A stretch of DNA of 44,143 bases, taken from assembly GCA_001778375.1 (NCBI GenBank), contig MFGV01000013.1, positions 1 to 44,143 of the forward strand. The letters run 5' to 3'. A program made the position numbers and the translations under genes. This document shows positions 14,530 to 38,600 of the stretch, piece by piece. A model generated the notes under the pieces. The model had not been told where the DNA came from, ran no database searches, and saw nothing but the letters and a program-made list of their open reading frames with translations. How positions within the stretch are numbered: position 1 is the stretch's first letter; every line of letters starts with the position of its first letter. This stretch comes from Candidatus Firestonebacteria bacterium RIFOXYD2_FULL_39_29. Its GTDB lineage: Bacteria; Oederibacteriota; D2-FULL-39-29.

Positions 14530-17457
14530 ATGAAGAGGAAAGGTATGAATGCTAGATGGAATAAAAGGGGGCATATGAAATCTGTTTCAAAGTTCATCTG
14601 CCTGATTCTGTTGACGAATCTGATAGTATGTTTCACTGGAATAAGTTTCCTTACGGCGGGAGTAAGTATCCCATCAAAGGCCGCAGCTCTGAAAGAATCA
14701 GGGCAGGATAAGAAAATGGAAGCGGGAAAAAAGTCCAAGGCGGAAGAAGCCTATGGTAAGCTACCGTTGTGTTTTGAATCTAACCATGGGCAAACCGATG
14801 CGTCAGTAAAATTTCTCGCTAGGGGCAAAGGGTATACCCTGTTTTTAACTTCTACAGAAGCTGTGCTGGCGTTAAAAACGGCGGCAGGTTCAAAAGCAGA
14901 AGGACTTGATGTAGTGCGAATGAAACTTAAAGATGCCAATATCGATCCGGTGTTTCAAGGGATGGATCTCCTGTCAAGTCAAAGCAGCTATATGACCGGT
15001 AATGATCCGAAGAAATGGCAAACCAAAATCGAACAGTATTCCAAAGTGGAGATAAAGCAGATCTATCCGGGAATAAATATGGTCTATTACGGGAATAACG
15101 GGCAGTTAGAATATGATTTTGTAGTAGCGCCGGGAGCAAATCCCGGACTTATTAAAATGATCTTTAAGGGAGCCAAAAATCTCGAGCTGGATCAAAAGGG
15201 AAATTTGGTCCTAAATTTACAAGAGGGCAGGCTGGCTTTTAATGCACCGACACTCTACCAAAAGACAGGCAGTAAAAGAGATATTGTTGCCGGGCGTTTT
15301 GTTCTGTCAGGCAATGAACAAGTCAGTTTTGAAGTGGCCGCGTATGATAAGAAAAAAGAACTGGTGATCGATCCGACTCTCGCGTACTCGACTTATCTGG
15401 GTACGACCGTTGCAGACAGGGTGAACTCCATGTATGTGGACACTCTGGGCAATGTGTATTTAACCGGAGAAACGGCCGGTACCGGTTTTCCCGGAACTGC
15501 CGGGCATTATCAAAACTTTAATAAAGGCGGGGCTTATGATGCCTTTGTGTTAAAAATTAATCCGGCCGGAGCTGTTGAGTGGGGCACCTATTTAGGCGGC
15601 GGCGGAGTGGATGTTGGCAGATCCATTACAGTAAGCGGAACCGGGATTATTTATATCTGCGGCGCTACGACTTCAGCGGGCGCGGCGTTTCCTACTACAG
15701 TCATCCCGAGTGCTGCGTCTTACCAGGCTGTTAATAACGGCGGTACAGACGCGTTTCTTACGGCTATTGCAGCGAGCGGAAATTCTCTTGTGTACTCGAT
15801 GTTTATAGGCGGGGCAGGTGAAGAGTTTGCTTTTGGCGTCGCGGTAGACAGCACAAATAATGCGTATGTGACCGGAGGAACAACCTCTAATAATACGACA
15901 CTTCCGGTAACGGGCGGTTTTCAAGGAGATAACGCCGCCGGAGTTGGTGATACGCACGAAAATGCCTTTGTGGCGAAATTCAACTCCGCAGGTACAGTAC
16001 AGTTCTTTACCTATCTCGGAGGAACTACAATTGGAGGAGGCGGTACGGGAGAAGCGTTTGATCCCAGCCTCGGCGGAACACACGGCAATGCAATTGCTTT
16101 AGACAGTAGCAATAATATCTACGTGACCGGCAAAACAGTAGCCGGTTTTCCTATATATCCTTTAGGCACAGAGTTTCCGTATGTGGGAATAGCATATAAG
16201 ACGACAATCAGCGGAGCTCCGGATGCATTTGTATCTAAGATCAGCACAAACGGTGCCACTTTGCTCTATTCCACATATTTGGGCGGCAGCGGAATGGCGA
16301 TGGGATTTGCAATAAAGGTAGACAGCGTCGGCAATGTATATGTTGCAGGCGATAATGATTCCGATAATTTTCCTGAAGTGACCATAGATATGCCTAAGGT
16401 CGGACAAACGACTATAGCGGGCGGTCCCTTTGATTGCTTTATCATGAAGATGAAGTTAGATGCCGCCGGATCTTTGGACGGCGTGTATTGCACCTTTTTA
16501 GGCGGAAAAGCCTGGGATCATGTAAATGCGCTTGCGGTGGATTCTTTCGGTAATGCGTATGTGACCGGCAGAACAGCGTCTGATGATTTCGTCTCTATCT
16601 CTCCTGCGTCAATTAATACACCCTTAGACAGTGTGTATGGCGCGGTGGCAAAAGCTTTTGTGACAGTAATTGGTCCTGATGGCAGTACCCGTATTTTAAA
16701 TAGTTATATAGGAGGAGTCTCGGATCAGGAAGGAAGAGGGATTGGACTGGATGCCGAAAATAATATTTATGTTTCGGGCTGGACTACTTCCACCGACTTT
16801 CCTACTGCTATTCCTTTTTACGAAGCAAATAAAGGAACATATGACGGCTTTGTTATGAAGATCTCAGCCACCTCACCCGCTACTTTAGCGGCACCGGCAA
16901 TCACCGGTATAAATCCAAATGTCGGGCCCATTGCCGGAAACACAACAGTTACCATTACCGGCTCCGGTTTTTCCAATGTAGCTTTCGCGACCGGCGTTAA
17001 GTTCGGCAGCGTGAACGCTGCGAGTTATGTAGTAATTTCTGATACGAAGATTACGGCGAAGACGCCTGCGCATGCTGCGGGAATAGTGGATGTTGTGACT
17101 ACGAATACGGTAGGGTCATCTCCGGCTGTGACGGCAGATCGCTTTACATTCTTTGTCACGCCTGCGATAAGCTCCAGCGGCGACTTTGAACCTTTTATAT
17201 TTCCATCGCCGGTTACCGGGAGCACTGCCGGAATTGCCTATTACATGACAGGCTCCGGAACAGTAAAAATCAAGATTTACAATGAGGTCGGGAATATGGT
17301 GTCCTCGCTGGAAGAAATCAAATCGCTGGGCTCACAGGGTTCCACCCTCAATGTCAGCAATCTTGCGCCCGGGATCTATTTTCACATAGTGAGCATGACC
17401 TATGATGATGGAGGTATAAAAAAATACTCTAAACGTAAATTTGCGGTTACACGCTGA
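14530..17457 (+). CDS. Secreted SBBP seven-bladed propeller with type IX-like tail, cargo 1
   Basis: This 975-aa exported protein contains, in order: a signal peptide; a DUF7948-type N-terminal domain (about 75-275, from LPLCFESNHGQTD to KKELVIDPT); seven SBBP repeats (about 285-780, pattern YSTYLGG...D..GNVYLTG); an IPT/TIG Ig-like domain (about 795-885); and a roughly 85-aa tail (FIFPSPVTGS, IKIYNEVG, LAPGIYF, KRKFAV). The tail resembles the Por secretion C-terminal signal of type IX cargo. Seven blades make a closed propeller. Two starts are possible: ATG 14530 (AGGAGG) adds 15 basic residues before the signal peptide that starts at ATG 14575 (GGGGG). Only this copy has the DUF7948 domain. 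A PorV-like gene follows directly. Probably surface-exposed; the ligand is unknown. Confidence 0.88.
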   Translation: MKRKGMNARWNKRGHMKSVSKFICLILLTNLIVCFTGISFLTAGVSIPSKAAALKESGQDKKMEAGKKSKAEEAYGKLPLCFESNHGQTDASVKFLARGKGYTLFLTSTEAVLALKTAAGSKAEGLDVVRMKLKDANIDPVFQGMDLLSSQSSYMTGNDPKKWQTKIEQYSKVEIKQIYPGINMVYYGNNGQLEYDFVVAPGANPGLIKMIFKGAKNLELDQKGNLVLNLQEGRLAFNAPTLYQKTGSKRDIVAGRFVLSGNEQVSFEVAAYDKKKELVIDPTLAYSTYLGTTVADRVNSMYVDTLGNVYLTGETAGTGFPGTAGHYQNFNKGGAYDAFVLKINPAGAVEWGTYLGGGGVDVGRSITVSGTGIIYICGATTSAGAAFPTTVIPSAASYQAVNNGGTDAFLTAIAASGNSLVYSMFIGGAGEEFAFGVAVDSTNNAYVTGGTTSNNTTLPVTGGFQGDNAAGVGDTHENAFVAKFNSAGTVQFFTYLGGTTIGGGGTGEAFDPSLGGTHGNAIALDSSNNIYVTGKTVAGFPIYPLGTEFPYVGIAYKTTISGAPDAFVSKISTNGATLLYSTYLGGSGMAMGFAIKVDSVGNVYVAGDNDSDNFPEVTIDMPKVGQTTIAGGPFDCFIMKMKLDAAGSLDGVYCTFLGGKAWDHVNALAVDSFGNAYVTGRTASDDFVSISPASINTPLDSVYGAVAKAFVTVIGPDGSTRILNSYIGGVSDQEGRGIGLDAENNIYVSGWTTSTDFPTAIPFYEANKGTYDGFVMKISATSPATLAAPAITGINPNVGPIAGNTTVTITGSGFSNVAFATGVKFGSVNAASYVVISDTKITAKTPAHAAGIVDVVTTNTVGSSPAVTADRFTFFVTPAISSSGDFEPFIFPSPVTGSTAGIAYYMTGSGTVKIKIYNEVGNMVSSLEEIKSLGSQGSTLNVSNLAPGIYFHIVSMTYDDGGIKKYSKRKFAVTR

Positions 17458-21692: not shown

Positions 21693-24600
21693 ATGAAATC
21701 AATTTTAAAAGTCATTCTGATTCTGTTAGCAAATATAATTGTAAGCACTGTCGGGATAACTCCTGCAGCAGCGGCAAGTATAATGTATTCGACATATCTC
21801 GGGGGGACTGTTGTAGACCGGGTGAACGCTATCGCGCTGGATAGTTCAAATAACGTTTATCTTGTCGGAAAAACGGTATCAACCGGTTTTCCGGGTGCTA
21901 CAGGAACCAGTTACCAGACCAACATCAGCGCGGGAACTGATGCATTTGTGACTAAGATCAGTTCGGGCGGTGTTCTTTCGTGGTCAACTTATCTGGGAGG
22001 CGACGCAATAGACATTGCGAATGCGGTTGCTGTTGATAATGCAGGTATTGTATATATCGCAGGCTCAACGACTTCGACGACCTTTCCAATGAAAAACGCG
22101 AATATTGGGACATACGTAGGATCAACAGATACTTTTGTAACGGCGGTTAGTGCCTCCGGCGCAGGGTTGGTTTATTCGACTTATCTGGGCGGGTCCGGCG
22201 TAGATATAGGTTATGGTATCGCTGTGAACGCAAGTACAGGGGCTGCCTATATAGTAGGAGATACCACAGCCAGCGCTCCTACGGCATTTGTGACAACAGA
22301 TAATCCGGATGGTTATGGTTCCGGCCTTCTTGCAAGAGGAGCAAGCGATATTTTTGTTGTTGAGTACAATCCGGCAGGAGGCCTCGCGCATGCTTGTTTA
22401 CTCGGAGGGACAACCTCGGATATTGGACGGGCAATTGCGATTGACGGCACCGGCAAGATTTACATAACCGGCCAGACGACGGCTACTTTTACCACAACAG
22501 CCGTTTGTTTTAAATCAAGTCCTACCGGGGCGACCGATGCATTTGTAGCGATACTCAGCGCTGACTTCGCTTCTTTACTTTATGGCACATATATAGGAGG
22601 CAACGGTAATGAAGATGCCTTCGGTATAGCGTTGGATCCCAGTCTCAATGTTTACATAGCGGGATATACAGATTCTACCGCTAACTTTCCCACAACGGGC
22701 TTTGGCAATATGGTTGGTCAGACGATAAAAGGGACCGGCGAGGATGCATTTGTTTTTAAGTTGAATGCGGGTTCTGCCGGTATAAGTGACGGTGTGTATG
22801 CCACTTTTATAGGCGGCGACGGTGTTGATAGAGCTACTGCGATTAAGGTAGATTCTTTGGGCAATGCCTATGTGATCGGGTATACCTTTTCTACTGCAAC
22901 GGGTTTTCCGCTTAATAATCCGATACTATCCCCGGACTTGAGCACAAGAACCGGATCGGAAATGGCTTTTGTGACTGTGATAGATCCTTCACCTGTAGCT
23001 GCTCAGCTTCCGGTGTTCTGTTCATATTTAGGAGGTTCCGACGGGGCCACTGTTACAGAAGGTTGGGGCATAGGTCTGGATAGTTCAAACAATATTTATG
23101 CGGTCGGATATACAACTTCGGCTCTTTTTCCCATTGTCAGCGAGCTCTATACTTATCAGGGCTCGGAAGACGGCTTTCTTACTAAGATTTCTGCGGTAGC
23201 AGCAAGTACAGTAGCAACACCGGTCATAACTCCTGCGGCCGGGTTGTATACAGGTTCAGTCACGGTAACAATTACAACCTCAACCTCGTTAGCAACTATA
23301 AGGTATACAACTGACGGATCAGCACCAAACGGATCCTCGGCAGTATACACAGTTCCTTTTGCACAGACGACAACCGCAACAATTGTGGCTTTTGCAATGA
23401 AGGGCGGAATGACGGACAGCGCGGCGACAGCGGCAACTGCATTTACGATACAGGTAGCAACGCCTGTGATAACACCTGCGGCCGGGTTGTATGCAGGTTC
23501 AGTCACGGTAACAATTACAACCTCAACCTCGTTAGCAACTATAAGGTATACAACTGACGGATCAGCACCAAACGGATCCTCGACAGTATACACAGTTCCT
23601 TTTGTACAGACGTCAACCGCAACAATTGTAGCTTTTGCAATGAAGGGCGGAATGACGAACAGTGCGGCGACAGCGGCAACTGCATTTACGATAGAGGGTT
23701 TAATACCTGTAATAACACCTGCCGCCGGTCAGTATACGGGCTCAGTGACAATAACTATGGCAACGGGAACTTCAGGAGCAACTATAAGATATACAACTGA
23801 CGGAACAGCTCCAAACGGATCCTCAACAGAATACACAGGCCCATTCGCGCAGACAACAACTGCTACAATTGTGGCTTTTACTACTAAAGGCGGAATAACA
23901 AGCAGTGCAACAGCGACGAGTGCGTTCACTATTTTATCGTCGATTATAAGTATTGACCCGGCCGGCGGCACCACCGACGGGGGTACAACAGTTACCATTA
24001 CCGGTTTAGGTTTCACCGGTACAACCGTAGTAACCCAAGTCAAGTTTGGTTCGCTGAATGCCACGAGTTTTATAGTGGATTCGAATACGCAAATTAGAGC
24101 GATAGCGCCTGCTCAAATAGAAGGCGCAGTGAACATTGTGGCGATGAGCTCTGTGGGTTCATCTCCAAGTGTGTCCGGCGATATCTACACATATTTTATC
24201 GCGGGAACCGTGCCGGTTATTACCAAACTTAATCCGGTCTATGGACCTTCTACAGGCGGTGCAACAGTTGTAATTACCGGTTCCGGTTTCACCGGAGTCA
24301 CCGGCGCCAACGGAGTTAAGTTCGGTAATTTGAATGCCGAGAGTTATGTAGTGAATTCTGATACGAAGATCACAGCGAAGACTAAGGCACATGCTGTAGG
24401 AGTAGTGGACGTTGTGGTAACAAATCAGACGGGATTGTCTTTGGTTATTTTGGCAGACCAGTATAATTACACTCTTACTGCGCCGGTAAGCGGCAGTACT
24501 TCATATGTATATCCGTCTCCAAGCACCGGCAGTACGGTAAATATCAATTATTTCATGGATGGTCCGGGAGTTGTTAAGATCCGGGTTTACAATGCGGTAG

Positions 24601-24767
24601 GCAGACTGGCAGACAGTCTGGAGGAAAGCAAACTTGACGGCGCGCAGTATTCCACTCTCAATATTGGTAATCTTGCGCCCGGGGTTTATTTCTACATTTT
24701 GAGCATGAACTACGATAACGGAGATACGAGCAAGTTTACAAAGCGCAAGTTTGTAGTTGTGCGTTAA
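21693..24767 (+). CDS. Secreted propeller with chitobiase-C-like and TIG domains, cargo 3
   Basis: The 1024-aa protein has a signal peptide and seven SBBP repeats (about 28-505). Next come three tandem chitobiase/beta-hexosaminidase C-terminal-like modules of 81 residues each (about 508-748; PVITPAAGLYTGSVTVTI, IRYTTDGSAPNGSS), then two IPT/TIG domains (about 750-930) and the type IX-like tail (YVYPSPSTGS, IRVYNAVG, LAPGVYFYIL, KRKFVV). The first two 81-residue modules are almost identical in DNA. No glycosidase catalytic domain is present, so these modules are probably stalk or carbohydrate-contact domains. It is more distant from cargos 1 and 2 and closer in blade sequence to cargo 4 (42448). 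A fused PorV-OmpA gene follows. Confidence 0.88.
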   Translation: MKSILKVILILLANIIVSTVGITPAAAASIMYSTYLGGTVVDRVNAIALDSSNNVYLVGKTVSTGFPGATGTSYQTNISAGTDAFVTKISSGGVLSWSTYLGGDAIDIANAVAVDNAGIVYIAGSTTSTTFPMKNANIGTYVGSTDTFVTAVSASGAGLVYSTYLGGSGVDIGYGIAVNASTGAAYIVGDTTASAPTAFVTTDNPDGYGSGLLARGASDIFVVEYNPAGGLAHACLLGGTTSDIGRAIAIDGTGKIYITGQTTATFTTTAVCFKSSPTGATDAFVAILSADFASLLYGTYIGGNGNEDAFGIALDPSLNVYIAGYTDSTANFPTTGFGNMVGQTIKGTGEDAFVFKLNAGSAGISDGVYATFIGGDGVDRATAIKVDSLGNAYVIGYTFSTATGFPLNNPILSPDLSTRTGSEMAFVTVIDPSPVAAQLPVFCSYLGGSDGATVTEGWGIGLDSSNNIYAVGYTTSALFPIVSELYTYQGSEDGFLTKISAVAASTVATPVITPAAGLYTGSVTVTITTSTSLATIRYTTDGSAPNGSSAVYTVPFAQTTTATIVAFAMKGGMTDSAATAATAFTIQVATPVITPAAGLYAGSVTVTITTSTSLATIRYTTDGSAPNGSSTVYTVPFVQTSTATIVAFAMKGGMTNSAATAATAFTIEGLIPVITPAAGQYTGSVTITMATGTSGATIRYTTDGTAPNGSSTEYTGPFAQTTTATIVAFTTKGGITSSATATSAFTILSSIISIDPAGGTTDGGTTVTITGLGFTGTTVVTQVKFGSLNATSFIVDSNTQIRAIAPAQIEGAVNIVAMSSVGSSPSVSGDIYTYFIAGTVPVITKLNPVYGPSTGGATVVITGSGFTGVTGANGVKFGNLNAESYVVNSDTKITAKTKAHAVGVVDVVVTNQTGLSLVILADQYNYTLTAPVSGSTSYVYPSPSTGSTVNINYFMDGPGVVKIRVYNAVGRLADSLEESKLDGAQYSTLNIGNLAPGVYFYILSMNYDNGDTSKFTKRKFVVVR
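23218..23937 (+). repeat. Three 243-bp in-frame tandem repeats
   Basis: The unit GCGGCCGGGTTGTAT begins at 23235 and 23478, and a diverged GCCGCCGGTCAGTAT at 23721, a constant 243-bp period. The first two copies differ at only a few positions. They encode the three chitobiase-C-like modules of cargo 3. Confidence 0.8.
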
Positions 24768-28956: not shown

Positions 28957-29442
28957 ATGAAAAATGTAATTGATGTTGTAACCGGGAAGGTAAAGGTTGG
29001 CAGGAATAATACAATATTGATGTCAAGCGCTATCGGCTCCTGTGTTGCCGTTGTTGCGATAGATATAGAAAATAAAATTGGCGGAATTGCCCATGTTATG
29101 CTTCCCGGAGCCGCGCCGGTTAAAAAGGGGATGAAAACAAAATATGCTTTTAATGCTCTTGATGCTTTATTCAAAAATATGCTTATAAAGGGGGCCGTCT
29201 TAAATAAAATGCGGGTATTTATTGTGGGCGGCGCCAGTATGCTGGGGTTAAAGAAAAGCAAAGTCGGAGAAGATAATACAATATCTATCATTAAATATTT
29301 AAAAGAAAAAAGAATCCGGCTGTATAAAAAAAATGTCGGAGGTAATAAAAGAATGAGCGTCAGACTGGATATTAATAAAAAGATAGTATCTTTTAGTGAA
29401 GGCGGCGGGCCAAATAAAATACTTTGGAGAGGATCTCTATGA
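28957..29442 (+). CDS. cheD: CheD-like receptor glutamine deamidase
   Basis: CheD deamidates glutamines in chemoreceptors, and in some species docks with CheC. The 161-aa protein has the active-site Cys29 (IGSCVAV), His46 in GIAHVMLP, and the downstream features GGASMLG, EDNTISI and VGGNKRMSVRLD. AAAAGGCAGG precedes the start. No receptor, CheA, CheC or CheR gene is in the window. The stop overlaps the start of the giant multi-PAS kinase by 4 nt, so the kinase or its signalling partners are likely functional neighbours. It may modify non-motility targets here; that is inference. Confidence 0.88.
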   Translation: MKNVIDVVTGKVKVGRNNTILMSSAIGSCVAVVAIDIENKIGGIAHVMLPGAAPVKKGMKTKYAFNALDALFKNMLIKGAVLNKMRVFIVGGASMLGLKKSKVGEDNTISIIKYLKEKRIRLYKKNVGGNKRMSVRLDINKKIVSFSEGGGPNKILWRGSL

Positions 29443-32400
29443 AAAGGAAAAACAGTAAACACAGTATTGATTTAGCCGGGCAAAAACTAATAGATGTCAG
29501 ACAACATCTGCAGGATGAAAGAGATTATTCCGAGTCAATTATTGAGACTATCAGAAAGCCGCTTTTAGTCTTGGATAAGGATTTAAGGGTGGTCTCTGCC
29601 GGCAGGGCATTTTATGATACCTTTAAAGTGAAAGAAAAAGAAACAGAAGGAAAACTGATCTATAAATTGGGAAACGGACAATGGAATATTCCTGCCTTAA
29701 AAGTGCTTTTATCCAATGTGCTTTCCAAGAAAAGCGTCTTTCAGGATTATGAAATAGACCATGAGTTTAAAACAATCGGTAAAAAGCATATGATCTTGAA
29801 CGGCAGGGAAATAAAAAGGGGAAACGGCAAGAGCCGCTTAATCCTCCTTGCGATAGAAGATGTGACGGAAAAAAGAAAAGCTATGGAGACAATTAAAGCG
29901 TCTAACCAGGAGTTAACAGCGGCTAATCAGGAACTTTCAGCTCTGGAACAGGAGTTAAGATCCTCCAATCAACAGCTGAGGGCTCATGAGCAGCAGCAAA
30001 CAGCTCTCGAGCAGCAGTTAAAATCGTCCAATCAGCAGCTAACAGCGCATGAGCAGCAGTTAAAATCATCCAACCAGCAGCTAATAGCGGCCGAACAGCA
30101 CCTTAAAGATGAAAGAGATTACTCTGAATCTATTATAGGGACTATTAGAAAACCGCTTTTGGTCTTAGATAAAGATTTAAGAGTGGTCTCTGCCGGCAGA
30201 GCATTTTATGATACCTTTAAGGTCAAAGAAAAAGAGACGGAAGGAAAACTGATCTATAAATTGGGAAACGGACAATGGAATATTCCCGCCTTGAAAGTCC
30301 TTTTATCCAATGTGCTGTCCAAGAAAAGTGTCTTTCAGGATTATGAAATAGATCATGAGTTTCGGACGATCGGTAAAAAGCATATGATCTTGAATGGACG
30401 GGAATTAAAAAGAGGGGACGGCAAGAATCGTTTGATCCTCCTTGCGATAGAAGATGTGACGGAAAAAAGAAAAGCAATTGAAACAATTAAAGCGTCTAAC
30501 CAGGAGTTGACAGCGGCTAATCAGGAACTTTCAGCCCTGGAACAGGAGTTAAGATCCTCCAATCAGCAATTAATAGCTCACGAGCAGCAGCAAAAAGATG
30601 AAAGAGACTATGCGGAATCTATTATAGGAACTATTAGAGAGCCGCTTTTGATATTAGATAAGAATTTAAGGGTGGTCTCTGCCAGTAGATCTTTTTATAA
30701 TACCTTTAAGGTCAAAGAAAAAGAAACGGAAAAAAAGCTGGTTTACGAACTGGGAAACGGACAATGGAACATTCCTGCGTTAAAAACACTGCTCACCAAT
30801 ATACTTCCCAAAAAAAGCGTTTTTCAAAGTTATGAAATAGAACATGAATTTACAACAATCGGTAAAAAGAATATGATATTAAATGCCAGAGAGTTGAAAA
30901 GAGAGGGCAGTGAAGACCGTTTGATCTTGCTTGCCATAGAAGATGTTACAGAAAAAAGAAAAGCAATGGAAATAATTAAAGCAGCCGAACAGCAGATAAA
31001 ATATGAAAGAGATTATTCCGAATCCATTATAGGAACTATCAGAGAGCCTATTCTGGTATTAGACAGGGATTTAAGGGTGGTTTCCGCAAACCGGGCTTTT
31101 TACGGTACCTTCAAGGTAAAAGAAAAAGAAACAGAAGGAAATCTGGTTTATGAACTGGGAAACGGGCAATGGAATATACCTGCGCTAAAAACCCTTCTCA
31201 CCAATATACTGCCTAAGAAAAATATCTTTCAAGGTTATGAAATAGAGCATGAGTTCAAAACGATCGGCAAAAAGAACATGATCCTGAATGCCAGAGAATT
31301 AAAAAGAGGGGGCAGCGAAAACCGCTTGATCCTTCTTGCGATAGAAGATGTTACAGAAAAGAGAAAAGCTGAGGAGATAATTAAAGCATCCAACCAGCAG
31401 TTATTGGGCGCTAACCAGCGTTTAACAGCGATAGAACAGCAGTTAAAAGATGAAAGAGATTATGCGGAATCGATAATTGGAACAATCAGGGGACTACTTT
31501 TAGTTTTAGATAAGGATTTAAGGGTGGTATCCGCCAGCAGATCCTTCTATGAAAAATTTAAGGTAAAAGAAAAAGAGACGGAAGGAAAACTGGTATACAA
31601 GCTTGGAAACGGACAATGGAATATTCCGGCGCTCAAAACACTATTAACTAATATTTTACCCAAAAAGAGCATATTTCAAGATTATGCAATAGAGCATGAA
31701 TTCAAAACAATCGGCAAAAAGAATATGATACTAAATGCCAGGGAACTGAAAAGGGAAAATGGCAAAAACCGCTTGATACTGCTTGCTATAGAAGATATTA
31801 CGGAAACAAGAAAAGCAATGGAAATAATTAAAGCAGCTGAACAGCAGATAAAGTATGAACGGGATTATGCCGAATCAATAATAGGAACCATCAGGGAGCC
31901 GCTTTTAATATTAGACAAGGACTTAAGGGTGGTATCCGCCAGCAGATCCTTCTATGACACGTTTAAGGTAAAAGAAAAAGAGACAGAAGGAAAACTGGTA
32001 TACAAACTTGGAAACGGACAGTGGAATATTCCGGCGTTAAAAACTCTTCTTACCAATATACTTCCTAAGAAAAACATTTTTCAGGGTTATGAAATAGAGC
32101 ATGAATTTAAAACGATCGGTAAAAAGAATATGATCCTGAATGCCCGGGAGTTAAAAAGGGCTGATGGTGAAAGCCGGTTAATCCTGCTTGCCATAGAAGA
32201 TGTGACGGAAAAAAGAAAAGCAGGAGAAAAAATTAAAGCAGCCGAGGAAGAACTAAAAGAGGAGAGAGATTATGCTGAATCTATAATTGGAACTGTCAGG
32301 GAATCCCTCTTGGTGTTAGACAAGGACTTAAGGGTGGTATCCGCCAGCAGATCTTTCTATGACAAATTTAAAGTAAAAGAAAAAGAGACAGAAGGAAAGC

Positions 32401-35400
32401 TGGTATACGAACTGGGAAACGGACAATGGGATATTCCTGCGCTTAAAATACTTCTTACCAATATCCTGCCCAATAAAAATATATTTCAAGGTTATGAAAT
32501 AGAGCATGAATTTAAAACAATCGGTAAAAAGAATATGATTCTAAACGCCCGGGAGTTAAAAAGGGCTGATGGTGAAAGCCGCTTGATTCTGCTTGCCATA
32601 GAAGATGTGACAGAAAAAAGAAAAGCAGAGGAAATAATTAAAGCAGCTAACCAGAAATTGACAACAGCCAACCGGGAATTAACCGCCGCGGAACAGCAAA
32701 TAAAATACGAAAGAGATTATTCTGAATCAATTATAGGAACGATGAGAGAGCCCCTTCTGGTATTAGACAAGGATTTGAGAGTGGTCTCCGCCAACCGGGC
32801 TTTTTATGGGACCTTTAAGGTCAAAGAAAAAGAGACAGAAGGAAATCTGGTATACGAACTGGGAAACGGACAATGGAATATTCCTGCGCTTAAAGTACTG
32901 CTTACCAATATCCTGCCCAAGAAAAGTATCTTTCAAAGTTATGAAATAGAACATGAATTCAAAACAATCGGTAAAAAGAATATGATCCTGAATGCCCGGG
33001 AATTAAAAAGGGGGGGCAGTGAAAACCGCTTGATCTTACTTGCCATAGAAGATGTGACAGAAAAAAGAAAAGCAGGGGAAATAATTAAAGCAGCTAATCA
33101 AAAATTGACAAACACCAACCAGGAGTTGACAGCTATTGAACTGGAACTAAGAGCGTCTAACCGGCAATTAACAGAGATCGAGGAACAGCTAAAGGACGAA
33201 AGAGACTATGCGGAGTCAATTATTGGAACCATAAGGGAGCCTCTTTTAGTATTGGATAAGGATTTAAGGGTTGTATCTGCCAGCAGGTCTTTTTATGATA
33301 CGTTCAAGGTAAAAGCTAAAGAAACGGAAGGAAATCTTGTTTATAAGCTGGGAAATGAGCAATGGAATATTCCTGCCCTTAGAATACTACTTACCAATAT
33401 CCTGCCCGAGAAGAGTGTTTTTCAGGATTACGAAGTTGAACATGAATTTAAAACAATAGGCAAAAAGAACATGATTTTGAATGCAAAAGAATTAAAAAGT
33501 GAAAATCACAAAAATCGCTTGATCCTGCTCGCGATAGAAGATGTGACGGAAAAAAGGAAAGCAGAGGAAAAAGTTAAGGCGGCGGAGGTAATTAAAGCAG
33601 CAAACGAACAACTGATAGCGGCTAATAAGCAGCTTATGTCTACGGAACAGCAGCTCCGGACGTTTAACGAGCAATTAAAAGCCGGCGCGCAAAAGCTGCA
33701 GGAATCAGAATTAAAATATAGAACTCTGTTTGAAACCAGTGTTGACGGAATATTGATAGCTGAAATTGAAACAAGGAAATTAGTATACGCAAATCCGTCA
33801 ATTTGTAAAATGCTGGGCTACACAAAAGAAGAATTGGAAAATATGAGTATAACTGACATATATCCTAAAGACAATAATGACAATCTGAAAAACAATATTT
33901 CAAAATTTGGTTCTCAGAAAGAAGGTGTGGCCTTAGAAGCGGATATTCCCTGCTTGAAAAAGAATACGGAAATAGTCTATGTCGACATCAATGTTACTGT
34001 CGCCTCAATAGACGGGAAAGAATGTAATGTAGGTTTCTTTAGAGATGTGGTTATACGCAAAAAAGCCCAGGACGATCTAATTAAAAGTGATAATAAATAT
34101 CAGTATTTGATTGAAAACTTAAATGAAGGTGTATGGGTTATTGACAGGGACAACCTTACTACTTTTACAAATGAAAGAATGGCTAAAATGCTGGGCTACG
34201 AAGCAATAGAAATGATAGGAAAGTCATTTTTTTCATTTATGGACGCTGTCGGAATAAAAATAGCTAAAGAAAATATGGAAAGGCAGAAAAACGGAATAAA
34301 AGAACAACATGATTTTGAATTTCAAAAAAAAGACGGCAAAAAGATGTTTGCTGTATTGGAAACCGCGCCGATACTTGATGATGGCGGAAAATATAACGGC
34401 TCAATTGCGGGAGTTATTGATATAACAGACAGAAAAAAGCTTGAAGAGCAGCTGCTGCAGTCGCAAAAGATGGAATCTGTAGGTATTCTTGCGGGCGGGA
34501 TTGCCCACGATTTTAATAACTTACTTACTGCAATTAAAGGATATTCTGAACTGGCAAAAGAAAGTACGGCTAAGGATAATCCGATATATGATGATTTAAA
34601 CGAAATATGTCTTGCTGCTGACAGGGCTGCTGACCTGACGAGACAGGTACTTCTTTTTAGCAGAAAACAGCCGTTAAATCCGATAAATCTGAATTTAAAC
34701 AGGATAATAGATAATATGTCAAAAATGCTAAACCGTATAATCGGCGAGGATATCAGCATAAAAACGGATTTGCAGTTAAACTTGTGGAATACTAACTCGG
34801 ATGAAACAAAGATGGAGCAAATCATTATGAATCTGACGATAAACGGCCGTGATGCAATGAATAAGGGCGGGGTACTGACCATAAAAACAGAGAATGTTAT
34901 AGTAAGTAAAGAGTATTCCATGAATATAGCAGAATCATACCCGGGTAAATTTGTTAAATTATCAATTCAGGATAACGGAATGGGAATAAACAAAGAAGTT
35001 CTTCAGCATATTTTTGAACCATATTTTACTACAAAAGGTCTCGGAAAGGGTACCGGGCTTGGTCTATCCGTAGTCTACGGTATAGTGAAACAACATAACG
35101 GCTGGATAAATGTTTATAGTGAACCGGACCGTGGGACTATGTTTACAATATATCTGCCTTCTTCTTCTTCGGAAAAAAAAGGGGAAATAATAAAAGAAAA
35201 ATATAATCCCGATGATCTTGTCGGACACGGAGAAAGAATTTTGGTTGTTGAAGATGAGGTTGCAATTAGAAAATATTCCAGCCGGGTCCTTTTAAATAAC
35301 GGTTATACTGTGTTTTTGGCAGGGGATGTTAATGAAGCTCTTACCATCTTTGAAAAAGAAAAAAACAATATAAAAATGGTTTTAAGCGATGTTGTACTGC

Positions 35401-35603
35401 CTGATGGGACCGGAATTGACCTGGTTAACCGGCTTCTTTTAGAAAAACCCGAATTCAAAGTTATTCTTTGCAGCGGTTATCTTGATGACAGGTCGCAGCA
35501 GCAGTTAATTCATGGAAAAGGCCACAAGTTCCTTCATAAACCGTTTCAGTTAAATGAACTGCTTGTTGCGGTAAAAGAAACTCTGGCAGAGGGAAGTAAG
35601 TAA
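29439..35603 (+). CDS. Giant hybrid histidine kinase with eleven PAS domains (2054 aa)
   Basis: ATG 29439 follows GGAGAGGA and overlaps the cheD stop; a TTG at 29424 is less likely. Nine near-identical PAS modules begin with ERDYxESII at residues 27, 225, 388, 523, 672, 807, 942, 1091 and 1254. Two different PAS domains follow (from about 1425 and 1550), then HisKA with His1690 (GGIAHDFNN), HATPase_c (NGRDAMNKGG, DNGMGI, GKGTGLGLS), and a receiver with Asp1984 (SDVVLPDGTG). There is no signal peptide or membrane helix, so it is cytoplasmic. The PAS modules are joined by Gln/Leu-rich coiled coils whose lengths differ by whole heptads. The kinase is complete and likely active; the ligand is unknown. 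Confidence 0.92.
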   Translation: MKRKNSKHSIDLAGQKLIDVRQHLQDERDYSESIIETIRKPLLVLDKDLRVVSAGRAFYDTFKVKEKETEGKLIYKLGNGQWNIPALKVLLSNVLSKKSVFQDYEIDHEFKTIGKKHMILNGREIKRGNGKSRLILLAIEDVTEKRKAMETIKASNQELTAANQELSALEQELRSSNQQLRAHEQQQTALEQQLKSSNQQLTAHEQQLKSSNQQLIAAEQHLKDERDYSESIIGTIRKPLLVLDKDLRVVSAGRAFYDTFKVKEKETEGKLIYKLGNGQWNIPALKVLLSNVLSKKSVFQDYEIDHEFRTIGKKHMILNGRELKRGDGKNRLILLAIEDVTEKRKAIETIKASNQELTAANQELSALEQELRSSNQQLIAHEQQQKDERDYAESIIGTIREPLLILDKNLRVVSASRSFYNTFKVKEKETEKKLVYELGNGQWNIPALKTLLTNILPKKSVFQSYEIEHEFTTIGKKNMILNARELKREGSEDRLILLAIEDVTEKRKAMEIIKAAEQQIKYERDYSESIIGTIREPILVLDRDLRVVSANRAFYGTFKVKEKETEGNLVYELGNGQWNIPALKTLLTNILPKKNIFQGYEIEHEFKTIGKKNMILNARELKRGGSENRLILLAIEDVTEKRKAEEIIKASNQQLLGANQRLTAIEQQLKDERDYAESIIGTIRGLLLVLDKDLRVVSASRSFYEKFKVKEKETEGKLVYKLGNGQWNIPALKTLLTNILPKKSIFQDYAIEHEFKTIGKKNMILNARELKRENGKNRLILLAIEDITETRKAMEIIKAAEQQIKYERDYAESIIGTIREPLLILDKDLRVVSASRSFYDTFKVKEKETEGKLVYKLGNGQWNIPALKTLLTNILPKKNIFQGYEIEHEFKTIGKKNMILNARELKRADGESRLILLAIEDVTEKRKAGEKIKAAEEELKEERDYAESIIGTVRESLLVLDKDLRVVSASRSFYDKFKVKEKETEGKLVYELGNGQWDIPALKILLTNILPNKNIFQGYEIEHEFKTIGKKNMILNARELKRADGESRLILLAIEDVTEKRKAEEIIKAANQKLTTANRELTAAEQQIKYERDYSESIIGTMREPLLVLDKDLRVVSANRAFYGTFKVKEKETEGNLVYELGNGQWNIPALKVLLTNILPKKSIFQSYEIEHEFKTIGKKNMILNARELKRGGSENRLILLAIEDVTEKRKAGEIIKAANQKLTNTNQELTAIELELRASNRQLTEIEEQLKDERDYAESIIGTIREPLLVLDKDLRVVSASRSFYDTFKVKAKETEGNLVYKLGNEQWNIPALRILLTNILPEKSVFQDYEVEHEFKTIGKKNMILNAKELKSENHKNRLILLAIEDVTEKRKAEEKVKAAEVIKAANEQLIAANKQLMSTEQQLRTFNEQLKAGAQKLQESELKYRTLFETSVDGILIAEIETRKLVYANPSICKMLGYTKEELENMSITDIYPKDNNDNLKNNISKFGSQKEGVALEADIPCLKKNTEIVYVDINVTVASIDGKECNVGFFRDVVIRKKAQDDLIKSDNKYQYLIENLNEGVWVIDRDNLTTFTNERMAKMLGYEAIEMIGKSFFSFMDAVGIKIAKENMERQKNGIKEQHDFEFQKKDGKKMFAVLETAPILDDGGKYNGSIAGVIDITDRKKLEEQLLQSQKMESVGILAGGIAHDFNNLLTAIKGYSELAKESTAKDNPIYDDLNEICLAADRAADLTRQVLLFSRKQPLNPINLNLNRIIDNMSKMLNRIIGEDISIKTDLQLNLWNTNSDETKMEQIIMNLTINGRDAMNKGGVLTIKTENVIVSKEYSMNIAESYPGKFVKLSIQDNGMGINKEVLQHIFEPYFTTKGLGKGTGLGLSVVYGIVKQHNGWINVYSEPDRGTMFTIYLPSSSSEKKGEIIKEKYNPDDLVGHGERILVVEDEVAIRKYSSRVLLNNGYTVFLAGDVNEALTIFEKEKNNIKMVLSDVVLPDGTGIDLVNRLLLEKPEFKVILCSGYLDDRSQQQLIHGKGHKFLHKPFQLNELLVAVKETLAEGSK
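29517..33595 (+). repeat. Nine tandem PAS-coding repeats
   Basis: Repeat starts are at 29517, 30111, 30600, 31005, 31452, 31857, 32262, 32709 and 33198. Spacings are 594, 489, 405, 447, 405, 405, 447 and 489 nt. The shortest, 405, is the basic unit; the others are longer by 42, 84 or 189 nt, always a multiple of 21. DNA similarity is high in segments such as GGAAACGGACAATGGAATAT, so the array can expand or contract by recombination. Confidence 0.85.
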
Positions 35604-36091: not shown

Positions 36092-36802
36092 ATGGAAGGC
36101 ACAATTTTGCTGGTGGATGATGAAGAGAGAAATTTGAAAATGTTGGAATCAATGCTTTTACCTGAGGGCTACAAAGTTCTGAAGGCAAGTAACGGGAAGG
36201 ACGCTCTTGAAATCTTAAAAAGCGAAAATGTACAGGCAGTTTTAACGGATATTATGATGCCCGGATTATCGGGGTTCGATGTTTTAAAAACAATCCGCGA
36301 GAATAAAGACCTGGCCACTCTCTCCGTTATAATTCTTACCTCCTTAACGGATAAAGAAGAAAGAATAAAGGGCCTGGAACTCGGCGCGGACGATTTTATT
36401 TCGAAACCTTTTGATCTGGATGAATTACGCGCCAAAATCAATACGCAGGTAAAATTGAATTTTTTGAGAATGCAGCTGAATGAAAGGGCAAAGCTTGTAA
36501 AGGTGATAAATAAAATAGAAGAAGGCGTAATAGTTGCCAATACTGATTTTGTACCCGTGAGTATGAATATGAAAGCCCGGGAATTTCTTGGCATAAAAGA
36601 AGCTCCCGTCAATATTTTGGCGTACTTAAAAGAAAAATATAATCAAGATATCGAGATCAGTGACGAAAGAATAAATATTGTTTTAAAACAGAAGATAAAC
36701 ACGGAGAATAATGTGCAACCGCTTTCTTTAACTATTGAAATGATAAAAGATGCTTCCGGCTCGGTTGATTCTTATATTTTTATATTTAAAATAATAAAAT
36801 AA
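36092..36802 (+). CDS. Receiver protein with PAS-like C-terminal domain (236 aa)
   Basis: A receiver domain (residues 1-120; Asp9-Asp10, phosphoacceptor Asp53 in LTDIMMPGLSG, switch Thr in IILTS, Lys in SKPFD) is followed by a short coiled coil and a PAS-like region (about 135-235; LVKVINKIEEGVIVANTDF, AREFLGI). No DNA-binding or enzymatic domain is seen. GAGGAGGGA precedes the ATG. It is the first gene of an apparent operon of five (36092-39874). It and the next gene are tandem duplicates over their full length. It may sense a signal and phosphorylation together. Confidence 0.87.
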   Translation: MEGTILLVDDEERNLKMLESMLLPEGYKVLKASNGKDALEILKSENVQAVLTDIMMPGLSGFDVLKTIRENKDLATLSVIILTSLTDKEERIKGLELGADDFISKPFDLDELRAKINTQVKLNFLRMQLNERAKLVKVINKIEEGVIVANTDFVPVSMNMKAREFLGIKEAPVNILAYLKEKYNQDIEISDERINIVLKQKINTENNVQPLSLTIEMIKDASGSVDSYIFIFKIIK

Positions 36803-36827
36803 CAAATCCTTCAGACGGTCGGTAAAT

Positions 36828-37529
36828 ATGAAAATTCTTATTGTGGATGATGAAGAAAAAGATCTAAAAATGCTGGAAGCTATGCTTTTACCTGAAGGTT
36901 ACGGGGTTGTAAAAGCCAAAAGCGGAGAAGAAGCTCTCCGGATTTTAAAGAGCGAAAATGTGCTGGTAGTTTTGCTGGATATTCTGATGCCGGGCTTGTC
37001 GGGATATGATGTTTTAAAAACAATTCGCGAGGACAAAAACCTGGATACCATGCCGGTTATAATTCTTACGGCCTTAACGAGCAAAGAAGAGCGTATAAAA
37101 GGTCTGGAGCTCGGAGCGGATGATTTTATTTCAAAACCATTAGCTATGGAAGAATTGCGCGCTAAAATTTACACACAGGTCAAATTAAAATATTTAAGAA
37201 GGCAGTTAACTGAAAGGGCAAAACTTTTAAAAGTGATAAATAAAATTGGTGAAGGGGTAATAGTCAGTGATAAGAAATTTGCTCCTGTGAATATAAATAT
37301 TAAAGCCGGAGAATTGCTGGGAATAAAAGCAGCTCCCGTAAATATCATGAACTATTTAAAAGATAATTATAATGAGGATATTCAGGTCAGCGAGGGAAGA
37401 AAAAATTATATTCTAAAACAAAAGCTTAATCTGGGTGATGCGATATTTCTTTCGTTAACAATTGATCCGATTAAAGATGTTTCCGGAGCGATTGATTCTT
37501 ACATTTTTATTTTTAAAAAAATAGAGTAA
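36828..37529 (+). CDS. Receiver protein with PAS-like C-terminal domain, tandem paralogue (233 aa)
   Basis: This protein aligns end to end with the 36092 product (MLLPEGYGVVKA, LELGADDFISKP, RAKLLKVINKIGEGVIVSD). The phosphoacceptor is Asp51 in LLDILMPGLSG; the Thr and Lys of the receiver are present. It starts 25 nt after the previous stop. The ribosome site is weak (GTCGGTAAAT), so translation may be coupled. The duplicates differ mostly in the C-terminal PAS-like part, which suggests different inputs or partners. Confidence 0.87.
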   Translation: MKILIVDDEEKDLKMLEAMLLPEGYGVVKAKSGEEALRILKSENVLVVLLDILMPGLSGYDVLKTIREDKNLDTMPVIILTALTSKEERIKGLELGADDFISKPLAMEELRAKIYTQVKLKYLRRQLTERAKLLKVINKIGEGVIVSDKKFAPVNINIKAGELLGIKAAPVNIMNYLKDNYNEDIQVSEGRKNYILKQKLNLGDAIFLSLTIDPIKDVSGAIDSYIFIFKKIE

Positions 37530-37550
37530 AGGATCATCGAGGTTTATAAT

Positions 37551-38600
37551 ATGAAAATTCTTATTGTGGATGATGAAGAGGCAAATGTTAAGCTGCTATC
37601 AGTAATCCTGTCCAGAAAAGGTTACGAAACATTAAAAGCCTACGATGGGGAATCTGCTTTGGCAATCGTCGGGAAGCAGGATGTTGATTTGATACTGCTC
37701 GATGTAATGATGCCCGGAATATCCGGTTTTGAAGTTGCAAAAAGAGTAAAAGCAATAAAGCAAATACCTATTATCATGGTTACCGGTTTAATGGACAGGG
37801 ATAAAATAATTGAAGGTTTTAAAAATGGGGCTGATGAGTTTTTATCAAAGCCCTATTTACAGGAAGAATTACTGCTGCGTATCGGGAATATTTTAAAAGT
37901 AAAGGAATATCAAAATAATCTTGAAGGCGTAGTGGAAGAAAGAACTAAAAGTTTAAAGGAAGCATTACGAAGATTAAATATCGTAAATAAAGAAGTAATG
38001 CACCGTTTGCTTGTTGCGGCGGAATATCGTGATGACAATACGGGAAAACACGTGGTGCGGGTGGGAGAATACAGCAGAATAATCGCGGAAGGCCTGGGGT
38101 TGGATAAGGAATATATTGAGTTGATACAACAAACGGCGCCCATGCATGATATAGGAAAAATCGGAGTTTCGGATCTGATCTTAAATAAACCTGACAAGCT
38201 TACATTCGAAGAGTTTGAAATAATGAAAACACATGTGATAATCGGAACGCGGATCATAGAAAAAGGCGAATCCCCTCTTATAGAGACTGCTTATGATATC
38301 ATACTGCATCATCATGAAAAATGGACCGGGCAGGGCTATCCAAATAGTAAAAAAGGAAAAGATATACCGCTTTCAGGCCGGATAGTTGCCTTAGCGGATG
38401 TTTTTGACGCCCTTACTTCCGCACGTCCTTATAAACCCGGTTTTGCCTGGGATAAATCGGTAAGTATCATTAAGGAAGAAAGAGAAAAACATTTTGATCC
38501 GGATGTAACGGATGCATTTTTAAATAATCAGGAAAAAATAAAAACTGTATATGATCAATATACCGACAATACACGAATTGAAAAAACTAATGTAGCCTGA
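37551..38600 (+). CDS. Response regulator with HD-GYP cyclic di-GMP phosphodiesterase domain
   Basis: The 349-aa protein has a receiver (phosphoacceptor Asp51 in LLDVMMPGISG), a coiled coil (about 115-150), and an HD-GYP domain (about 150-335). The domain keeps its metal and signature residues: HD at 199-200 in MHDIGKIG, HHHEKWTGQGYP at 253-264 with GYP at 262-264, and ADVFDALTS. Such RpfG-type proteins hydrolyse cyclic di-GMP when phosphorylated. No GGDEF protein is in the window. It starts 21 nt after the previous gene in the same operon. CGAGG lies upstream of the ATG. Confidence 0.93.
   Translation: MKILIVDDEEANVKLLSVILSRKGYETLKAYDGESALAIVGKQDVDLILLDVMMPGISGFEVAKRVKAIKQIPIIMVTGLMDRDKIIEGFKNGADEFLSKPYLQEELLLRIGNILKVKEYQNNLEGVVEERTKSLKEALRRLNIVNKEVMHRLLVAAEYRDDNTGKHVVRVGEYSRIIAEGLGLDKEYIELIQQTAPMHDIGKIGVSDLILNKPDKLTFEEFEIMKTHVIIGTRIIEKGESPLIETAYDIILHHHEKWTGQGYPNSKKGKDIPLSGRIVALADVFDALTSARPYKPGFAWDKSVSIIKEEREKHFDPDVTDAFLNNQEKIKTVYDQYTDNTRIEKTNVA

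Follow-up and report, generated by a model that had tools for sequence, protein, structure and literature searches.

Could a single histidine kinase carry a long row of PAS domains of one family and hold all of them in the same rotational phase? This question is raised by a gene of Candidatus Firestonebacteria bacterium RIFOXYD2_FULL_39_29, contained in the 44,143-nucleotide stretch of DNA analyzed here (contig MFGV01000013.1, positions 1 to 44,143; hereafter, the window). The window is the whole source contig, and the genome (3.0 Mb in 93 contigs) is MAG-like. The kinase ORF starts with an ATG at 29439 and ends at 35603, giving 2054 aa, or 2059 aa if the upstream TTG at 29424 is used. Nine same-family PAS domains come first, Pfam places PAS_3, PAS_9, HisKA, HATPase_c and REC after them, and, since the last three occur on a single chain, the protein is a predicted hybrid histidine kinase, with autophosphorylation and phosphotransfer predicted from its domains. 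No transmembrane stretch was found in a scan of its sequence. The features around and downstream of the array are as follows.

28957-29442, + strand: CheD, chemoreceptor glutamine deamidase family (Pfam CheD, 1.3e-16); its stop overlaps the kinase start (ATGA)
29439-35603, + strand: predicted nine-PAS hybrid histidine kinase, 2054 aa (ORF reading, Pfam domains)
33783-34028, + strand: generic PAS, PAS_3 (Pfam)
34125-34430, + strand: generic PAS, PAS_9/PAS_4 (Pfam)
34488-34670, + strand: HisKA (Pfam)
34800-35162, + strand: HATPase_c (Pfam)
35238-35573, + strand: REC receiver domain (Pfam)
36092-38600, + strand: two REC proteins and a REC-HD-GYP protein, 3' of the kinase (Pfam)

Homologues of these two REC proteins and of the REC-HD-GYP protein also lie 3' of an eight-module orthologue of the array in a congener (G001), and they are possible candidates for the outputs of the kinase. 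Directly 3' of the congener's array lies a second hybrid kinase (PAS-PAS-HisKA-HATPase-REC; L009, 15629-17698), which shares 42% identity with the window kinase across 662 residues. Elsewhere, the window holds two large SBBP/TIG proteins with Por_Secre_tail (T9SS-type sorting) domains (14530-17457 and 21693-24767), the latter with an internal 243-bp tandem repeat at 23207-23879 (87% matches), and a MORN_2-repeat ORF (1554-2873) that adjoins gyrB.

How regular is the array? Core alignment resolved it into the following parts, all on the + strand; the comparison with the congener's modules (named B1-B8, against A1-A9 in the window) is marked where it was also used.

29517-29882, +: PAS module 1 (core alignment)
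29883-30110, +: linker 1, 76 aa, Gln/Leu heptads (TRF periods 42/63 nt)
30111-30476, +: PAS module 2, 96% aa identity with module 1, of which it is a lineage-specific duplicate (core alignment, congener)
30477-30599, +: linker 2, 41 aa (core alignment)
30600-30965, +: PAS module 3 (core alignment, congener)
30966-31004, +: linker 3, 13 aa; 20 aa in the congener, a one-heptad indel (congener)
31005-31370, +: PAS module 4, 100% aa identity with B3 (congener)
31371-31451, +: linker 4, 27 aa (core alignment, congener)
31452-31817, +: PAS module 5, 100% aa identity with B4 at 84% nt (congener)
31818-31856, +: linker 5, 13 aa (core alignment, congener)
31857-32222, +: PAS module 6, folded with AlphaFold2 (core alignment, AlphaFold2)
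32223-32261, +: linker 6, 13 aa (core alignment, congener)
32262-32627, +: PAS module 7 (core alignment, congener)
32628-32708, +: linker 7, 27 aa (core alignment, congener)
32709-33074, +: PAS module 8 (core alignment, congener)
33075-33197, +: linker 8, 41 aa (core alignment, congener)
33198-33563, +: PAS module 9 (core alignment, congener)
33564-33707, +: linker 9, 48 aa, leading to a different PAS, with a one-residue register slip kept in the congener (register reading)

The nine cores are each exactly 122 aa long without internal indels, and their spacings (198, 163, 135, 149, 135, 135, 149 and 163 residues in order) reproduce exactly the module number and the four spacings claimed in the first-pass annotation. 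That annotation had also called the modules near-identical, which is generous, as the cores share 79-96% identity in protein and 76-89% in DNA. Measured from A122 of one core to E1 of the next, the linkers are 76, 41, 13, 27, 13, 13, 27 and 41 aa long, with 48 aa then leading to the different PAS. Every length difference among the first eight is a multiple of 7, in agreement with the earlier claim that the excess over 135 always comes in sevens.

Repeated sequence in a MAG-like, 93-contig genome could make one suspect that misassembly created or distorted the nine-module array. However, the modules are 11-24% apart in DNA, and the longest exact repeat is 47 nt in the window kinase gene (36 nt in the congener's), repeats that assembly from short reads of ordinary length should resolve without collapse. 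Furthermore, the congener, in a separate record, has an independent array with the same spacing order and one module fewer. The short repeats and this matching layout rule out assembly collapse, and misassembly of any kind is extremely improbable.

The modules belong to the PAS family by profile as well as by predicted structure. Module 7 matches Pfam PAS_4 (3.5e-6), and AlphaFold2 gave one module (21 sequences) a PAS fold with pLDDT 82 and flanking helices at 2-25 and 130-147. Its best Foldseek matches are PAS/LOV domains, including DosP, FixL, BvgS, NifL and the LOV kinase YF1 (we take the match 4gcz to be YF1), while PDB sequence searches with the module returned no clear relative. In a three-module model the helices between PAS domains are unbroken, which is suggestive, but the pLDDT of 53 is too poor to measure rotation. 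The nine cores contain no Cys and thus no LOV flavin-adduct cysteine, and the F helix (NIPALKTLLTNILPKK) has no FixL/DosP-type proximal His; these missing motifs rule out LOV and FixL-type heme sensing, and other heme modes remain. Relatives of the module are found in CheB-CheR-PAS proteins (L048-L051), which identifies it as a CheBR-type PAS. One of these, L048, is encoded in the same genome, has a CheR match in its ORF and reads CheB-CheR-coil-PAS-PAS-kinase with the window's PAS family; similar proteins occur in relatives of the same order, and there are plasmid matches annotated as CheB.

Are the modules interchangeable copies, or does each position have an identity of its own? The congener's array has spacings of 184, 142, 149, 135, 135, 149 and 163 residues, and modules A3-A9 pair with B2-B8 at 95.9, 100, 100, 98.4, 95.1, 97.5 and 99.2% protein identity and 82-88% DNA identity. 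Between the two species, modules 3-9 have a dS of 0.8-2, near saturation, and a dN/dS of 0.000-0.023, which is below that of the kinase part (0.058); the A1/B1 pair is more changeable (0.040). Modules 3-9 vary among themselves at 36 columns; across these, agreement is 95.6% between orthologues, compared with 55.8% for other modules (permutation p 0.00015). These results show that each of positions 3-9 has its own conserved identity, with purifying selection on the modules, and that the array is old and its copies have not been homogenized. Concerted evolution is ruled out by the tree and by the position-specific residues, both of which pair orthologues. The exception is modules 1 and 2, which pair with each other and not with B1. 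The coil before module 2 (EQHLKD) repeats that before module 1 and B1, so the breakpoint of this duplication probably lies within heptads. Orthologous linkers in the two species are identical or differ by whole heptads only (13 versus 20; 76/41 versus 62). Change in the array between the two species is thus N-terminal, comprising this one duplication and some heptads of the first linkers, and the view of an array that expands and contracts finds little echo in seven modules that are positional orthologues.

The linkers also carry a hydrophobic register. Counting phases from T117 near the end of the core, strong hydrophobics (ILMVF) occupy 35 of the 37 phase-2 places over the eight same-family linkers and are rare at other phases, 44 of the 45 phase-0 places hold polar or charged residues, and I12 of the next module falls at phase 2 as well. 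These observations indicate that one heptad register is continuous from each core into the next and, taken together with the length differences of whole heptads, mark these segments as heptad-quantized coiled-coil linkers. Phase 2 could possibly pair with phase 5 (Ala/Leu/Ser) or phase 6 (Asn/Glu) to give two overlapping registers, which we mention as a lead; such registers have been described for PadC (PMC9587094). In the last linker, the leucines shift from phase 2 to phase 1 at KAAEVIK in both the window and the congener, whereas phase 2 runs unbroken through the linker of a single-module cousin (L053). A one-residue slip may thus mark the junction of the array with the kinase stalk. In YF1, activity depends on linker length with a 7-residue period, and a 7n+1 linker inverts the response (PMC6798134).

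Does the grid hold beyond the two species? We collected directly adjacent same-family PAS pairs from some 1,500 genome searches and a plasmid collection, and measured the distance from T117 at the end of one core to I12 at the start of the next, which cancels core indels. Relatives with off-grid linkers were sought, and none was found among these pairs: all 62, from 28 proteins of several phyla, lie at 30+7n (one of them, in L124, with a weak second domain). The distances are 23 (5 pairs), 30 (6), 37 (39), 44 (4), 51 (2), 58 (3), 79 (2) and 93 (1). Clustering at 60% identity sorts their linkers into 15 groups, and by sequence three broad types can be told apart. Since almost every one of the 39 pairs at a distance of 37 has the same type of linker, the cases that count as independent are nearer 10-15 than 62. 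The Gln-rich type is confined to the window's genus. The EAGLEKTRKELAVIKKSADE type has a distance of 37, with one 30 in L119 after the loss of exactly one heptad from a non-repetitive linker, and the alphaproteobacterial type, from Sinorhizobium, Rhizobium and Palleronia plasmids and with HWE-type kinases where annotated, is always at 23; neither has the look of 21-nt repeats. Same-family pairs with another PAS between them (4, 5, 2, 2 and 6 modulo 7) were set aside, as the inserted PAS differs in type. L053, from another genus (G004), has the same layout with a single module, and its 98-residue linker to the generic PAS, compared with 48 in the window, is longer by 7x7+1. The earlier statement that selection keeps the phase thus agrees with every adjacent same-family pair but does not extend to this generic-PAS junction, one residue off, so that beyond pairs of the same family the phase is not always strictly kept.

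Could the grid arise without any selection on phase, as a by-product of slippage or unequal exchange in 21-nt repeats that adds or removes in-frame heptads? Linker 1 indeed has a 21/42/63-nt tandem structure, the breakpoint of the module 1/2 duplication probably falls in coil heptads with a repeated EQHLKD flank, and the variable linkers are the repetitive ones. On the other hand, the grid holds at 23, 30 and 37 with unrelated, non-repetitive linkers in other phyla, including the one-heptad deletion, and the hydrophobic phase is kept even though synonymous sites are near saturation. If just three independent changes in length are counted, all from linkers that are not Gln-rich, the chance probability is about (1/7)^3 = 0.003; adding the Gln-rich lengths cuts this far lower, but those may share slippage as their cause. 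Slippage explains part of the grid in the Gln-rich class and is not alone sufficient overall, and we consider it unlikely to be the whole story. That 23, 30 and 37 turn up in distant lineages with unrelated linkers speaks for selection on phase, beyond slippage alone, and suggests that the rotational alignment of neighboring sensors is under selection.

What would such alignment serve? The best explanation of the anatomy, grid, register, orthology and purifying selection is, in our judgment, a phase-locked homodimeric rod of nine PAS domains on one continuous coil, with the grid kept by selection, that biases the C-terminal kinase unit; we think this probable, with considerable reserve. From it we infer dimerization, sensing, transmission along the coil and the outputs. 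On this view, the hybrid histidine kinase would be cytosolic and would have as its input a parallel rod of nine CheB-CheR-type PAS domains, joined by a single heptad-register coiled coil that would pass unbroken from the terminal helix of each core through the linker into the N-terminal helix of the next. Given such continuity, a length change other than 7n would rotate neighboring PAS domains, and selection would consequently hold the linkers on the 7-residue grid. Variants would be supplied by duplication or deletion of 21-nt heptad units, and whole modules by exchange between heptads. As the modules are position-specific and strongly conserved, they probably have different or graded jobs, for which different ligands or affinities, partner binding and mechanical roles are candidates. 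Each would bias the one shared coil and thereby the kinase/phosphatase balance of the PAS-PAS-HisKA-HATPase-REC unit, and the array could then be read, as first proposed, as a tunable stack of sensors. This raises the question of how a kinase over a thousand residues distant could receive a signal from module 1.

The array might instead be mainly a structural rod, a ruler or a docking scaffold that offers avidity for a partner, for example CheD or a response regulator. The ninefold repetition of a domain rich in invariant columns, the long coils and the coupling of the CheD gene to the kinase gene would all fit such a role. However, a mere spacer would not need module-specific residues conserved by position, and CheBR-type PAS domains elsewhere occupy the sensor position next to kinases, so that, of the two readings, we favor the phase-locked rod and consider a mainly structural role improbable.

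Why should a CheD gene run into the kinase gene? We take the Cys of GSCVAV and the His of AHVMLP to be the catalytic residues of CheD, and the window protein keeps both when aligned to T. maritima CheD (2F9Z_C). At three loci in two genera, a CheD gene either abuts or overlaps the gene of a kinase with window-type PAS: in the window (28957-29442), at the congener's second, three-module kinase, where it abuts (L010, 9334-9813), and at L053 (1213-1682). In each of these genomes, G000 (the window's), G001 and G004, it is the sole CheD. The G004 gene continues into the kinase: past a G-run, the C-terminal half of its CheD is read in the frame of the kinase. Within the family, CheD occurs in these three genomes with such a kinase and was not found in G002 or G003. 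G000 has one small chemosensory operon, CheW-CheY-CheA-MCP-CheC (L148, G000:C74), which adjoins two FliG-domain genes, one of them carrying TPR repeats. CheR does not occur separately in this genome and is matched only within the L048 fusion; in G004 (86% complete), no MCP or CheW was found. A functional relation between CheD and the kinase is plausible. The adjacency may also be a mere leftover of a chemotaxis cluster, since the CheD gene of G018 has CheA, CheW, MCP, CheR and CheB genes around it, with a tandem-PAS kinase nearby. The CheD of B. subtilis deamidates glutamines of receptors, although its main mode of action may be binding (PMC3513319). In the window kinase, CheD might deamidate or bind the Gln-rich heptads between the PAS domains and so reset the gain of the array, a reading that we hold to be quite doubtful; the linkers hold 8 MCP-like motifs compared with 1.3 in shuffles, a count based on a consensus motif that is inflated by heptad repetition and has little weight. 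If true, the link would bring chemoreceptor-style adaptation into a two-component kinase.

How does this kinase compare with known systems? A separate case of tandem same-family PAS is the seven-module array L089 (G976:C18), a 1420-aa ORF with fixed linkers. Like the four-module proteins L054 and L069, it shares with the window kinase the 7-residue grid and the position upstream of a kinase, but in all three the T117-I12 distance is fixed at 37 with LEKTRKEL-type sequence, without the window's variable Gln-rich heptads. The CheB-CheR-PAS fusions (L048 and L049-L051) share the PAS family, the polar heptad coil and a kinase after the PAS, and differ in having one module together with CheB and CheR domains, which the window kinase lacks. 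Poly-HAMP kinases and receptors place many relay units in series, which is alike in idea, but those units are HAMP four-helix units rather than PAS domains on coils. The S-helix (PMC1592074) is likewise a parallel coiled coil between signaling domains, including PAS, but has an ERT signature in its central heptad; this is absent from the window kinase linkers, which rules out S-helix membership. In the PadC phytochrome-diguanylate cyclases (PMC9587094), linker differences are multiples of seven in 54%, with 38% at -4 and some at +2, whereas none of the 62 pairs of the window's PAS family is off the grid. Heptad-quantized linkers in PAS kinases, including those between consecutive sensor modules, are already established (PMC6798134). 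YF1, FixL and BvgS share the PAS-helix-kinase layout, heptad-grid linkers and regular spacing of consecutive sensors (PMC6798134), but kinases of this type usually have one to a few different PAS domains, compared with nine of one family on variable, quantized linkers here. We found no earlier report of a nine-fold same-family PAS array in the literature searched, which covered few subscription papers; what appears to be new is this array, the strictness with which the grid holds across phyla, the conservation of each module according to its position and the coupling to CheD. With eight same-family junctions of four lengths, all in phase, and relatives that lengthen the series, the locus offers a natural experiment on coiled-coil phase. 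In engineered YF1, phase sets the polarity of the signal, and the window array allows that rule to be tested in nature.
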